From Kiritimatiellia bacterium (lineage in GTDB: Bacteria > Verrucomicrobiota > Kiritimatiellia > SLAD01), in the NCBI GenBank assembly GCA_007134735.1, contig SLKG01000166.1, forward strand, positions 1 through 37,760: DNA of 37,760 nucleotides, read 5' to 3'. The position numbers and the translations under genes are program-made. Below are positions 17,853 through 29,163 of the stretch, in pieces; the first letter of the stretch is position 1; each line of letters starts with the position of its first letter. Below the pieces are notes generated by a model, which ran no database searches, was not told where the DNA came from, and worked only from the letters and a program-made list of their open reading frames with translations.

Positions 17853-17863
17853 CCCTCTTCAAT

Positions 17864-17960
17864 CGTACTCGTCCTCGTTCTCGTCCCCGTCCTCGATATG
17901 CCCTGCTCCATCCGCTTCACCATCATGCTCTTTTCGAGGACGAGAACGAGGACGAGTACG
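17864..17960. repeat. Long inverted repeat (about 27-bp arms, 37-bp spacer)
   Basis: Left CGTACTCGTCCTCGTTCTCGTCCCCGTCCTCGA (17864-17896), right TCGAGGACGAGAACGAGGACGAGTACG (17934-17960); the left arm carries a 6-nt insertion relative to the perfect complement. Confidence 0.9.
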
Positions 17961-17965
17961 AAATA

Positions 17966-18649: not shown

Positions 18650-18719
18650 GATAATCCATTCCCGTGCAAACCATCCTGCCGCCGAGCCGGGGTCAATCCA
18701 AGCGCCTTATCCGGCTGAC

Positions 18720-18796
18720 GGCTCAGCAGGAGCTTCGCCCTCCAGATCGATCAACCACCATTGCCCTGTGATGGAGGGCGAGGCTCCCGCCGAGCC
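18720..18796. repeat. Inverted repeat element (25-bp arms, 22/25 complementary)
   Basis: Left GGCTCAGCAGGAGCTTCGCCCTCCA (18720-18744), right TGGAGGGCGAGGCTCCCGCCGAGCC (18772-18796); a further copy of GCCGAGCCGGGGTC at about 18681. Confidence 0.88.
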
Positions 18797-18838
18797 GGGG
18801 TCCCACCACGGCTGTTCTTAACGCACCCCCGCGCACTT

Positions 18839-20655: not shown

Positions 20656-20787
20656 GGTTCTACGAACTCCGATTCATGAATACATTTGGGAACAAATGAA
20701 AAAAGGAGGCTAATCCAAGTATCCCGACCGATCAAAGCAAAAATGTGCCGGGCACTTGGGGCGGGGCTCATCCTTCGGTCGTCTTAA

Positions 20788-20860
20788 GCACAACGCATGC
20801 TCTTGACAGGCAGGAATGCCTGTCTTACTGACTTCGTAGCGCCCTGCTCCAGCAGAGCGC
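20788..20860. repeat. Partial composite repeat: 41-bp tail of the 103-bp unit plus the GCGCCCTGCTCCAGCAGNGCGC hairpin
   Basis: 20788-20828 matches the tail of the 26977-27079 unit with 3 mismatches; hairpin at 20839-20860. Confidence 0.85.
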
Positions 20861-20937: not shown

Positions 20938-20959
20938 GGTCAGGCGAGGCCGCCTGACC
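20938..20959. repeat. Short hairpin repeat GGTCAGGCG-AGGC-CGCCTGACC
   Basis: Perfect 9-bp stem followed by TACA. Confidence 0.8.
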
Positions 20960-20993: not shown

Positions 20994-21014
20994 GGACAGG
21001 CGGCTCGCCTGTCC
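20994..21014. repeat. Short hairpin repeat GGACAGGCG-GCT-CGCCTGTCC
   Basis: Perfect 9-bp stem preceded by GTA. Confidence 0.8.
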
Positions 21015-22441: not shown

Positions 22442-22551
22442 GACAGGAATGCCTGTCCTTCTGTCTTCGTGGCGCCCTGCTCCAGCAGGGCGCTTGGATT
22501 CGTCAACCCACATGACATGGCCCTATCCGGCTCCCTGCTGGAGCAGGGAGC
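22442..22551. repeat. Composite repeat copy: GACAGGAATGCCTGTC, GCGCCCTGCTCCAGCAGGGCGC and GCTCCCTGCTGGAGCAGGGAGC hairpins
   Basis: Hairpins at 22442-22457, 22472-22493 and 22530-22551. Confidence 0.85.
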
Positions 22552-25600: not shown

Positions 25601-26900
25601 CGCGAATTACACGGCGCTGACATCGGTGCTGGTAAGACTGGATGCGGACATCATCGCCTTCCAGGAAGTGTATGCCAGCGAGTACGACGACTGGGTCGCG
25701 TTGGCCGCGGCACTGGGCTACGACCATACCGCCCTGGCGCCCGAAGGCGACATCAGCGGCACGCAGCGGACCGCCTATTACAGCCGGTTCCCGATCGATT
25801 CGGTACACGCCGTCCTCTCCCCGCCGGGGGCGAGCGAAATGACGCGGGCCGTGTTGCGCGTCGTGATCGACGTGCCCGACGCGGAGAATCCGCTGGTGAT
25901 CTGGAACGCGCACAAGAAGGCGATGGGCGGCGAACTCAACCACTTCCGACGCGCCGTGGAAACCCTGCGGATCGTGCAGGATATCGAGACCTACCGGGCG
26001 GCAAATACCGCGCATGTTGAATTTGTCGTGCTCGGCGACATGAATGCGGATGTCTATACCGAAGACCAATCCGTCCTGTTTACCGAAGATTGGTATGAGG
26101 ACAACGAGTCCGATCTTCCGCAATCCTTTGTCCTCGGCGAGGACATTGATTTTCCGGTGTACTACTACCGGTTCCCGGACGACCGCTATGAACACGTGAC
26201 GGGGGGGCTGCACCGTCCGGTGGTTCGCCAGCAGGACCGGAACAGCGTGTACTCGTTCGAGAACCCGAGCTTCATCTCCCGCCTGGACTATGTCCTGGTC
26301 AGCGACGCGCTCGCCGCCCGGGCGCCGGCAGGCGAAATCTATTATTCGGGACACGACGGAACCTATGCCGGCCTGCCCAAAGCCGGCGACCCGCTTCCCG
26401 CGGTGACCAGTTGGACGGCGTCAGATCATCTGCCCATCATCATCGACCTCTACATGAGCGCCGCGGCCGGCCCAACGGAGAGGGGCGAATTCTCGGTGGA
26501 AGAAGAGCTCATCGGAAAAGAAGACAAGGAAGAACCGGATGCATTCGTGGTCCTGTCTCAAACCTGGACCGGTGACGACGAAAGCCGGGAGGAGGACACG
26601 AAATCCGATTCGGATGACCTCACGGGAATCATCACGCTGGAAGAAGTGGCTCTTGTTACCCGGCTGGAAATCGTTCCGTTAAGCGGCGGCCGGTTTGCGC
26701 TTCGGTTCCCGTCTGAGATCGGATTCACCTACACACTCGAAGCCCGGAACGGATACGGCCGGGACGCGGCGTGGAACGTGTTGGACGGGTTTCAGGCGAT
26801 CCCCGGCACAGGCGGAACCATGAGCCATGTCGATAAACCTTCGCCCGATGGCGGCATCCGGTTCTATCGCGTGCGCATCTCGCGCGACGGGATACGGTAG
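22680..26900 (+). CDS. Large modular exported EEP-domain protein with repeated beta-sandwich and FN3-like domains
   Basis: Probable GTG start at 22680 giving signal peptide MFRPVLLRVILLFIVVAGGAGSAARG. Three ~170-aa repeats ending in GWDN...R, three FN3-like repeats (TLGGT..DDGG..V.ERGVYWS), then EEP core ASYNIEDG, DIIAFQEV, VVLGDMNADV, RLDYVLVS, SDHLPIIIDL. Confidence 0.85.
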   Translation: MFRPVLLRVILLFIVVAGGAGSAARGETQSIALSITPLPDGSFGLSFPSVTGVFYTIEHRPNLGVESPWQNLSEFDQVPGTGETMTHVDTDAAAPAVTRRYYRLRIEPDTGPTEYILALYEFTETNPVPQVVASGITATDFDISSGSLNYGHFHADTWTGSGVPYAQGNSGWDILNVENAKYFTYTITADENMVFSVTNLRFLARASTHGPSAIGVFLNGALVHEQDMPVDETLSIIIPVFGQNNLTQAVIRIPGWDNDSRETGGGGHFRIDDVQAEGTVGIQPEQVPPTVTDPVFFNISDTSATLGGTVSDDGYATVTERGVFWSITPGFDPPSEGTKVSETGEFSPESFTLNVTGLPSDTNIYFRAFATNSAGMGLSEETSFKTTDEPALALPVVTEPTALDITETTAWLGGTIEDDGGGILVERGVYWSTSADFEPPEEGNKVYVTGEFDLGAFSVYVSGLPSDTEIFFRAFAANAEQTGYTDLDSFVTPADDDLVLYTFTGYTANPEAHRESIAPTSLDISAGSYEFGWSASDASQWESLGGTEPYVEGRGGGYWNANNQSDARYFHFTLTADSGWMMTVTGVSYLAYASRQGPSAVGVSLNGDPVHAENMPQDTVIQVEAPVAGYEDLSTAEIRIQGWDNGSRNTTGRGAYRIDTVRVHGFMTMDPNIGVPTVTNPSVSGVQSFSATLGGTITDDGGATVTERGVYWSTVENFSPPAQGTKVSEAGTFGIGDFTLNVHQLPPDTPIYFRAFAKSVAGAGFTEQASFTTEPYDAELLSLYEFTDQVVTPHARHPHIVSSHFVHNTGRPGFGSHNEATWTGSGVPYAQMAGNLARTSPTNARHFVYSLEAPWGTTFDISHIRFLARATDQGPSALSVSIDGDIIHTQNMPANETLSVSVPVTGYTDIELATIRILGWDNGTRETAGTGLMQIDDVRTEGSVSGTVSEPVTEGRHVRVASYNIEDGIGQIGSANYTALTSVLVRLDADIIAFQEVYASEYDDWVALAAALGYDHTALAPEGDISGTQRTAYYSRFPIDSVHAVLSPPGASEMTRAVLRVVIDVPDAENPLVIWNAHKKAMGGELNHFRRAVETLRIVQDIETYRAANTAHVEFVVLGDMNADVYTEDQSVLFTEDWYEDNESDLPQSFVLGEDIDFPVYYYRFPDDRYEHVTGGLHRPVVRQQDRNSVYSFENPSFISRLDYVLVSDALAARAPAGEIYYSGHDGTYAGLPKAGDPLPAVTSWTASDHLPIIIDLYMSAAAGPTERGEFSVEEELIGKEDKEEPDAFVVLSQTWTGDDESREEDTKSDSDDLTGIITLEEVALVTRLEIVPLSGGRFALRFPSEIGFTYTLEARNGYGRDAAWNVLDGFQAIPGTGGTMSHVDKPSPDGGIRFYRVRISRDGIR

Positions 26901-26924
26901 GGGCTTCGCAAGCGAAGCCCCTAC
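26897..26924. repeat. Perfect 13-bp hairpin overlapping the stop codon of the large EEP gene
   Basis: GTAGGGGCTTCGC-AA-GCGAAGCCCCTAC; TAG stop at 26898-26900 lies inside the left arm. Confidence 0.9.
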
Positions 26925-26976: not shown

Positions 26977-27110
26977 GCATGATCAAGCGCATACGCGGAA
27001 CAAGCGCCGGGCATGGCTCGATTCCTTGTTCTTCTCATGCACAACTCATGCTCCCGACAGGCAGGAATGCCTGTCTTACGGCCTTCGTGGCGCCCTGCTC
27101 CAGCAGGGCG
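26977..27110. repeat. 103-bp unit copy 1 (26977-27079) plus GCGCCCTGCTCCAGCAGGGCG hairpin (27090-27110)
   Basis: By-eye ungapped alignment: 85/103 identical to copy 2 and 86/103 to copy 3. Confidence 0.9.
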
Positions 27111-27227
27111 TTCTCTTGGAAGCAACCCACCCGCCGTGTCCTATTCTGTTCCCTGCCGGCTTGTCAGGCGTAGTCCTGACCAAGAGGCAGAACGAAGGAG
27201 GAGTGTCACTCCGAATAAAGCCCGCGG

Positions 27228-28790
27228 TCACCGCGTAATGAGAACCCGGTAATATCGCCGATTCTCCACGGGAGGAAAGGATCCCGTTTCCGACCCGTCA
27301 TCCGTCCACCGCGCTTCTCCGCCCGTGAACGTAATGGCGGAATGGTTGGTCAGGGTGACCCAGGAAAACAGGTCCGCGGAATACAGAACCCGGTAAGGAT
27401 GCCGGTCGGGGGCATGACCCGTGGCTTTCCAGGTCAGGACCGCCCCGGACGCATCCGGCGCCACGGATGCGTTCGCTTCGGTCAGGGCCAATTGTATCGA
27501 ATACGCGGCGTTCAACCGCCCCCACCCATAATAGGGATCCCAACCGGGCACATCGGACGCATCGCCCACCTGATCCTCGGCCCCGGCGCACAGCAATGTC
27601 CTTGCGGTTTCCTGATCGAACGACGGGCACACGGACGCCAGCAGAGCGGCGACCCCCGCCACCTGGGGCGCGGAAAACGACGTGCCCCACCAGTGCTCGA
27701 GGTTGCCGCTCAAGCCCACGGTATAGATGTTGGTTCCGGGTGCGACCAGATCGATTTCATCTCCCCAATTGCTGAACGAGGAACGAACGTCGTTGGAATC
27801 CGTTGCCCCCACGGTGATGCTCTCCGGAAGATTGCCCGGATAGGTAATAATGCCGCTTGAATGATTATGCGTTATGGTCACGAAGACCACCTCGTTTGAA
27901 ACCGCATGGCGTATGGCATCGGTCAGCGCCGTCAACGACCCGCTGCCCCCGGCGGAGAGATTGATGATCTTGGCCCCGTTGGCCACGGCATAATTGATTC
28001 CGTCCGCCCACCACGAATAGTAACCCCAGTTACCCGAATTCAACACCTTGACCGGCATGAGCATGCACGTCCAATCCACGCCGGCCACCAGCCGGTCGTT
28101 ATTGGCATTCGCCGCCAACACACCGGCCACGGCGGTGCCGTGGCCATGATCATCCGATGGATCATTGTTGTCGCTGACAAAGTTGTATCCCGGTACCAGG
28201 CGTCCGGCAAACTCGGCCTCCGACAGATCGATTCCACTATCCAGGACCGCCACGATGACATTGGTGGACCCGGTGGTCGAGGCCCACGCGCCGGTCGACT
28301 GGATGGTTTCGTGATGCCATTGAAGCGCGTATGACGGATCGGACGGGATTCCTCCTCCGAAGCCGACACCGTCCGGTTCCGCATACTCGATCCAGGGATG
28401 CCGCCGCAGATGTTCCAGCATCTCCGGAACGGTTACGCTTTTGTCCAGATGGACAATCAGGTGGGAGGCCTCCAGGTTGATACTCTCCATCTTCCTGTTT
28501 TGACCGCCGGCCTTCTGTCCCCGACTCCATTGATCAAAGCCGCTTTCCCGTACGCGCACACCGGCCGGCAACTGAAGAATCCGTTCGAGATCTCGGACGG
28601 CGAGTTCCGTCCGGCCGCGAGGATCCTTGCGGGTTGCGGCATCACTCAGTTTTATGATGACACGATTATTCGCACATAGATGACCGTTGATTGTAATCAA
28701 ATGAGCAGCGTCGGACGCGGAAAGCGCCGACCGCCCACCGGCCATCACCAGTATGAGCGCGATGAGCACAGTCCTGCATAGCGTCTTCAT
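27228..28790 (-). CDS. Subtilisin-like serine protease (S8 family), exported
   Basis: Catalytic motifs VIVAVLDSGID (D), DDHGHGTAVAGVLAAN (H), GTSFSAPQVAGVAALLA (S); signal peptide MKTLCRTVLIALILVMAGGRSALSA from ATG 28790. ORF track start 29030 lies in repeats. Confidence 0.94.
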   Translation of the reverse strand: MKTLCRTVLIALILVMAGGRSALSASDAAHLITINGHLCANNRVIIKLSDAATRKDPRGRTELAVRDLERILQLPAGVRVRESGFDQWSRGQKAGGQNRKMESINLEASHLIVHLDKSVTVPEMLEHLRRHPWIEYAEPDGVGFGGGIPSDPSYALQWHHETIQSTGAWASTTGSTNVIVAVLDSGIDLSEAEFAGRLVPGYNFVSDNNDPSDDHGHGTAVAGVLAANANNDRLVAGVDWTCMLMPVKVLNSGNWGYYSWWADGINYAVANGAKIINLSAGGSGSLTALTDAIRHAVSNEVVFVTITHNHSSGIITYPGNLPESITVGATDSNDVRSSFSNWGDEIDLVAPGTNIYTVGLSGNLEHWWGTSFSAPQVAGVAALLASVCPSFDQETARTLLCAGAEDQVGDASDVPGWDPYYGWGRLNAAYSIQLALTEANASVAPDASGAVLTWKATGHAPDRHPYRVLYSADLFSWVTLTNHSAITFTGGEARWTDDGSETGSFPPVENRRYYRVLITR

Positions 28791-28849
28791 CACATATTCT
28801 CTATACCCCAAACGTAGACCGGAGGTTAGCAGCATTACGGGATAATGCC

Positions 28850-28999
28850 GGTCGGGCATTTCTATCCCGCGCTCCGCGGGGCCTGCCCGACCACGAGCAT
28901 GATGAAGCGCAGGCGCGGAGCAAATATAGGGCATAGCCCGACTCCTTGTTCTTCTCATGCGCGGCCCACGTTCCCGACAGGCAGGAATGCCTGTCTTAC
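28850..28999. repeat. Composite repeat: GGTCGGGCA...TGCCCGACC hairpin (28850-28892) plus 103-bp unit copy 2 (28897-28999)
   Basis: Direct alignment with copies 1 and 3. Confidence 0.9.
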
Positions 29000-29034
29000 T
29001 ATATTCACGGCACGCATAACCGTGGGACAAAGTA

Positions 29035-29163
29035 GGTCGGGCATTCCTGCCCGACCATGAGCATGATTAAGCGCATGCGCGGAGCAACCATGAAGCATAG
29101 CTCAATCCTTTGCTCATCTCATGCACAGCTCATGCGCCCGACAGGCAGGAATGCCTGTCTTAC
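29035..29163. repeat. Composite repeat: GGTCGGGCATTCCTGCCCGACC hairpin (29035-29056) plus 103-bp unit copy 3 (29061-29163)
   Basis: Direct alignment with copies 1 and 2; head-to-tail with copy 2. Confidence 0.9.

Follow-up and report, generated by a model that had tools for sequence, protein, structure and literature searches.

REPs are extragenic palindromes of 20–50 nt, present in many copies, whose 5′ tetranucleotide is conserved and in most cases reads GTAG. In Pseudomonas, REPs form REPINs, inverted doublets whose spacers keep their length and their capacity to form a hairpin and show compensatory changes (PMC3116915). In Escherichia coli, TnpA-REP acts on single-stranded REPs, which it cuts and joins at a dinucleotide close to the hairpin; both the GTAG tetranucleotide and the stem-loop are needed for this, and the roles proposed for BIMEs in this species include transcription termination, mRNA protection and the provision of sites for gyrase or nucleoid proteins (PMC8266576). 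GTAG repeats are also known from the PVC superphylum, including dimers 1–2 bp apart in Opitutus terrae (PMC3733652). Beyond word matches that appear incidental, a full-text literature search returned no earlier description linking the Kiritimatiellae with REP or RAYT.

The window analysed here, a 37,760-nt stretch from the MAG of a Kiritimatiellia bacterium, contains three ungapped copies of a 103-nt unit, at exactly the coordinates given in the original prediction, which had read them as either a structured RNA or folded mobile DNA of no named repeat family. The repeat does belong to a named kind, REP/REPIN. The units can be identified, with high probability, as long REPINs (REP doublets of the BIME type), the non-autonomous mobile DNA of a RAYT/REPIN system, and a transposase whose gene lies at another place in this genome very probably copies them.

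Pairwise, the three copies agree at 85, 86 and 83 of 103 positions (81–83%), close to the 83% estimated earlier, and the invariant hairpin placed at unit positions 80–99 (GACAGGCA-GGAA-TGCCTGTC) is present. The boundary of the unit had been drawn wrongly, however, as a 132-bp element contains copy 3 as its right-hand portion (Table 1). On the other strand, the hairpin that ends the unit reads GTAA-GACAGGCA-TTCC-TGCCTGTC, and a perfect-hairpin scan found a second palindrome, GTAG-GTCGGGCA-TTCC-TGCCCGAC, at 29032–29055. Both are GTA-tagged, belong to one class and are mutually inverted, head to head, with a doublet spacing of 104 bp, which makes the 132-bp element the natural unit. Heads carry the tag GTAG (GTAGGTCGGGC...), the tail REPs in the window carry GTAA and the subtype sequence GACAGGC, and the tails of the short doublets described below have GTCAGGC.

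Table 1. Coordinates of the REPIN-related features in the window.
Feature	Position	Strand	Description
Complete long REPIN (copy 3 with head)	29032..29163	+	132 bp: head REP, 83-nt middle, inverted tail REP
Head REP of copy 3	29032..29056	+	GTAGGTCGGGCATTCCTGCCCGACC; GTAG tag and palindrome; same sequence class as the REPs flanking the C116 RAYT
Copy 3 as first predicted	29061..29163	+	103 bp; middle and tail REP
Tail REP of copy 3	29140..29163	-	GACAGGCAGGAATGCCTGTCTTAC (reverse complement GTAAGACAGGCATTCCTGCCTGTC); 24-mer
Copy 2	28897..28999	+	103 bp; middle and tail REP (28976-28999)
Remnant of copy 2 head REP	28850..28892	+	extra hairpin CCCGCGCTCCGCGGGG in the loop; without GTAG tag
Copy 1	26977..27079	+	103 bp; middle and tail REP (27056-27079); head REP not recognisable
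Truncated copy	20757..20828	+	right part of middle and tail REP (20805-20828); no head

Copy 1, which has no recognisable head, is a decayed REPIN. A truncated copy does exist where one had been suggested, although it is longer than the tail-only fragment at 20788–20828 first described and matches unit positions 33–103 at 82% identity. In a nucleotide search of the genome, the three window copies were the only full-length matches. Partial matches were found at 20759–20828 in the window (unit positions 33–103) and on contigs C163 (33–103), C121 (22–103) and C80 (59–103), and several further matches cover the terminal hairpin alone. The head REP followed by GAGCATG gave no exact-pattern match across the genome contigs. 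When the whole long element was searched as DNA against 193 relatives, the middle was found in the window's own genome only, and the 24-mer tail REP of copy 3 recurs identically in the related MAGs G104 and G165. The loops of REP palindromes at three loci (the copy 2 head remnant, L051, and L019 at 1990–2030, beside the RAYT gene) contain a nested GC-rich hairpin (CCCCGC...GCGGGG), perhaps because one REP was inserted in another or because these REPs form an extended-loop subtype.

Across the 2.58-Mb genome, the palindrome pattern GNCNGGCANNNNTGCCNGNC, in which two stem pairs are left free, matches 53 times, compared with once for the reversed control, and the tagged-REP pattern GTANGNCNGGCATTNNTGCCNGNC occurs at 50 places (control, 0). 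Among the 50 palindromes listed, 48 keep Watson–Crick pairing at both free stem pairs, in the combinations T-A/A-T (19), T-A/G-C (18) and A-T/A-T (11); the REP stems themselves show clear and significant covariation. The palindromes pair as inverted doublets with the GTA tags outside and at discrete spacings between the starts of the REP bodies: 23 bp in nine short doublets of the type GTAGGTCGGGCATTCTTGCCCGACC-NN-GTCAGGCAGGAATGCCTGACCTAC, and 102–104 bp in four long doublets (copy 3 on the window's contig C29, and one each on C121, C37 and C137). Doublets spaced 52 and 76 bp adjoin the RAYT gene. The C121 element (L061:1389–1520) is 132 bp long, as is the copy 3 element, and their middles share 16 of 83 ungapped identities. 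In G007 and G010, two genomes of the same family, long doublets total 129–130 bp and have middles of 80–81 nt whose sequence is again different. The middle thus varies less in length than in sequence.

A search for a RAYT-type transposase gene, suggested with the original prediction, returned eight IS200-like transposase genes in the genome that match Y1_Tnp (PF01797), six of them above the cut-off. REPs of this class were found at only one of the eight loci, a RAYT on contig C116 (22168–22827), which has five of them upstream and two at or just after its 3′ end; the other seven loci have none. The protein scores just under the Pfam Y1_Tnp and NCBIfam cut-offs (71 bits against 80 for NF047646, REP-associated tyrosine transposase), and its two close relatives both score 84 with the latter. 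It has the Y1 HUH domain, with the HUH motif in MPNHVHVL and the catalytic tyrosine in YIVDNPVKAGLV. Its best PDB match is 4er8, E. coli TnpA-REP (E = 0.004), and the alignment to it includes the HUH and YI..NPVK segments. The close relatives, from Lentisphaerae bacterium NC_groundwater_1095 and Kiritimatiellae bacterium CSSed162cmB_382, are 57 and 54% identical to it over the alignment, share with it the HUH motif (NHVH/NHLH) and a YI..NPVKAGLV core, and carry the same REP class on each side of their genes, where about 0.0007 REP hits per shuffled locus would be expected by chance. Locus L062 and that in G104 appear to be the same, as do L063 and that in G010, with equal gene and REP spacing, and they were counted as two relatives, not four.

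Among RAYT relatives below about 50% identity, this REP class was absent except for one isolated hit in L138, which restricts the RAYT–REP link to one clade. Among 288 genomes of the class, 21 contain the tagged REP, and the control pattern scores 0 in every one. Counts of 50, 21 and 30 tagged REPs were obtained for the three genomes whose RAYT reaches 54% identity or more, and only 4 of the other 285 have at least 15; Fisher's exact test of RAYT against REP count gives approximately 1e-5, calculated by hand with a RAYT identity threshold chosen after the data had been seen. Four genomes (G007, G120, G131 and G165) contain many REPs and no close RAYT hit, perhaps because these MAGs are incomplete. 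The tail subtype of the window, GACAGGC, was not found beside the C116 RAYT, where the subtypes are GTCAGGC and GTCGGGC, so its cognate enzyme may be another RAYT; a second, unassembled gene of this kind is possible. In G104, GACAGGC occurs often and the close RAYT has GTCAGGC types on its flanks, so that the subtypes coexist with one RAYT clade. Action of the C116 RAYT on the GACAGGC tails is something that we infer; the tag of these tails, GTAA and not GTAG, is a further point against the assignment.

The genes flanking the C116 RAYT and its REPs (L019) resemble, by eye, cofD and cofC of F420 biosynthesis, and the cofD-like frame overlaps at its 3′ end with the first REP of this locus. The Y1 genes at L013, L014 and L016 (contigs C160, C159 and C123) have unrelated paired hairpins of their own, and several RAYT/REP systems appear to coexist in this 2.6-Mb MAG. 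Many RAYT-like matches in the class sit in open frames of 700–1600 codons (e.g. G158:C114, G001:C208 and G250:C19), which may be real fusions or merely long stop-free frames.

Copy 3 lies approximately 160 bp upstream of smc, ahead of a promoter-like stretch (ACATATAGTAGTTG ... TTGATACAGTATC) that lies just downstream of the repeat, is common to relatives and can be aligned, in G004 and G006 at least, without the repeat. Seven genomes of this family, with SMC N-termini 86–90% identical, have no REP of the class ahead of their smc genes. On these alignments, the smc locus suggests the pattern left by insertion next to an old promoter, and loss in the relatives is possible too. Mobility aside, the testable defining features of REPs, REPINs/BIMEs and RAYTs are present in this genome. 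The mobile-DNA reading of the original prediction is borne out by a RAYT in the genome flanked by the same palindromes, by the recurrence of this pairing in relatives and by the absence of the repeat at orthologous loci.

The other reading held that the 103-bp unit is a structured RNA, either a small RNA or a cis-regulator, with selection on a multi-branched fold. The helices named for it are correct as sequence: positions 1–6 can pair with 59–64 and 22–27 with 50–55, and pairs 24–53 (A-T, G.T and G-C in copies 1 to 3) and 34–42 (G.T, G-C and A-T) vary compatibly, with exceptions at pair 33–43, broken in copy 3, and pair 28–49, broken in copies 2 and 3. Over six aligned copies, two of them partial, these helices pair in 92% of cells. 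The changes on both sides of a pair are nevertheless confined to two pairs and were equalled by 178 of 500 shuffles, so that covariation is not significant in this small set of copies and the changes stand at chance level; the minimum-energy alternative fold of the six copies did no better. A column-shuffle test on the three copies favoured a common fold of the middles, with a control that does not keep dinucleotides. Against dinucleotide-preserving shuffles, the middles of copies 1–3 have z scores of -2.7, -0.9 and -0.9, those of copies 2 and 3 thus folding like shuffles. Elsewhere, the middles of C121 and C37 fold strongly (-3.6 and -4.7), that of C137 does not (+1.2), and the G007 and G010 copies give -1.3, -1.9 and +0.3. 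The whole 103-bp unit does fold strongly (z about -5), largely because of the REP hairpins. Rfam returned nothing in the region at gathering or relaxed thresholds. The long elements elsewhere, with different middles of nearly equal length, likewise count against a selected fold, as do the position of copy 3 ahead of a shared promoter-like stretch and the intergenic placement of the copies, which have no gene in common. With no significant covariation in either fold and no Rfam match, a structured RNA was rejected and is very unlikely. The middle is best read as a spacer that is in part palindromic, like those of Pseudomonas REPINs. Folded as RNA into a single hairpin with head paired to tail, the copy 3 element reaches -57.8 kcal/mol and the C121 element -85.3 kcal/mol, and the doublet with its spacer can thus form one single-strand hairpin to which the spacer contributes unevenly.

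Duplication of an intergenic segment in place, with no transposition, would account for the 164 bp that separate copies 2 and 3 and for a further downstream hairpin shared by copy 1 and the truncated copy, and it may explain the copy 2–3 pair. As a sole explanation it is refuted by the copies of the middle or tail on C163, C80, C121 and other contigs and, given also the regular doublets formed by the 53 palindromes genome-wide and their RAYT linkage, it is exceedingly improbable. A third alternative is that the REP palindromes are kept for a chromosomal role (termination, mRNA protection, or gyrase or nucleoid-protein sites) and that transposition is only their past origin. Such functions have been reported for REP/BIME (PMC8266576), and the setting of copy 1 between convergent genes and of copies 2 and 3 between divergent genes would suit them. 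The window copies are decaying, however, with heads missing or distorted, and they are absent from orthologous loci, which together argue against a conserved local role. We regard this alternative as rather unlikely; it is compatible with REPIN mobility, and the two are not mutually exclusive.

As long REPINs, the elements share with those of P. fluorescens SBW25 (Bertels and Rainey 2011, PMC3116915) the inverted doublets, the discrete spacings, the hairpin spacers with compensatory changes, the proximity to RAYT genes and the occurrence of singlets as decay products. They differ in REP sequence and loop, in being heterodimers of two stem types, in their size classes (REP bodies 23 and 102–104 bp apart here, as compared with 71 and 110 bp) and in copy number, which is in the tens here and in the hundreds in SBW25. 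E. coli BIMEs and the TnpA-REP system (REPtron; PMC8266576, PDB 4er8) resemble them in the GTAG-tagged palindromes, in the combination of a REP and an inverted REP with differing stems, and in the single-copy Y1 transposase gene flanked by REPs. Unlike E. coli BIMEs, the palindromes here have a perfect 8-bp stem, a TTCC or TTCT loop and a tail tag that is often GTAA or GTAT, and the transposase is only distantly similar to TnpA-REP. The GTAG REPs of O. terrae (Verrucomicrobia) have the same PVC origin, and their head-to-head dimers recall, in arrangement, the 23-bp doublets (PMC3733652).

A mechanism can be proposed from the biochemistry of the same protein family. In single-stranded DNA, for example the lagging-strand template, each REP would fold into a hairpin, and the C116 RAYT would recognise the palindrome together with the GTA(G) tag on its 5′ side at both ends of the doublet and use its HUH/tyrosine site to cut the strand. 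Either the released element or a copy would then be joined to a new, mostly intergenic site, and decay after insertion would leave head-less copies such as copy 1 and the truncated copy. The middle would mainly set the distance between the REPs and often add hairpin pairing. The near-fixed length of the middles, about 83 nt in the window, C121, C37 and C137 and 80–81 nt in G007 and G010 despite very different sequences, could mean that the transposase measures the distance between REP hairpins or that the middle binds a host factor, in which case one RAYT would serve two functional size classes; this reading is rather unlikely.

Other repeats were noted in the window. A second family, CTTCGTGGCGCCCTGCTCCAGCAGGGCG, has 24 matches in the genome, and its window copies (27091–27110, 20836–20859 and 22472–22493) each come directly after a REPIN tail: that of copy 1, that of the truncated copy and a degraded one at 22452. 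As the distance is the same in all three cases, the two kinds of repeat form composites. A GTAG-type palindrome pair at 20938–20959 and 20994–21014 (GGTCAGGCGAGGCCGCCTGACCTAC and GTAGGACAGGCGGCTCGCCTGTCC) is probably a further REP family. The hairpin GTAGGGGCTTCGCAAGCGAAGCCCCTAC (26897–26924) lies at the 3′ end of a long ORF, and a very similar one adjoins the Y1 transposase on C123 (L016). Inverted repeats are found at 17863–17961 (27-nt arms, 96% complementary) and 18719–18797 (26-nt arms, 88%), the latter resembling GGAGGGCGAGGCTCCCGCCGAGCC repeats on contig C101 (L009).

When a palindromic repeat present in three copies seems to show compensatory changes, these should not be taken for a new RNA. 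RAYT/REPIN is a known kind of bacterial repeat, to which a system in the Kiritimatiellae is added here, with a REP class that 21 of these genomes have in common and that is linked to a single clade of transposases. As very short and long doublet classes occur in one genome with one RAYT gene, they lend themselves to a natural comparison of what determines REPIN length.
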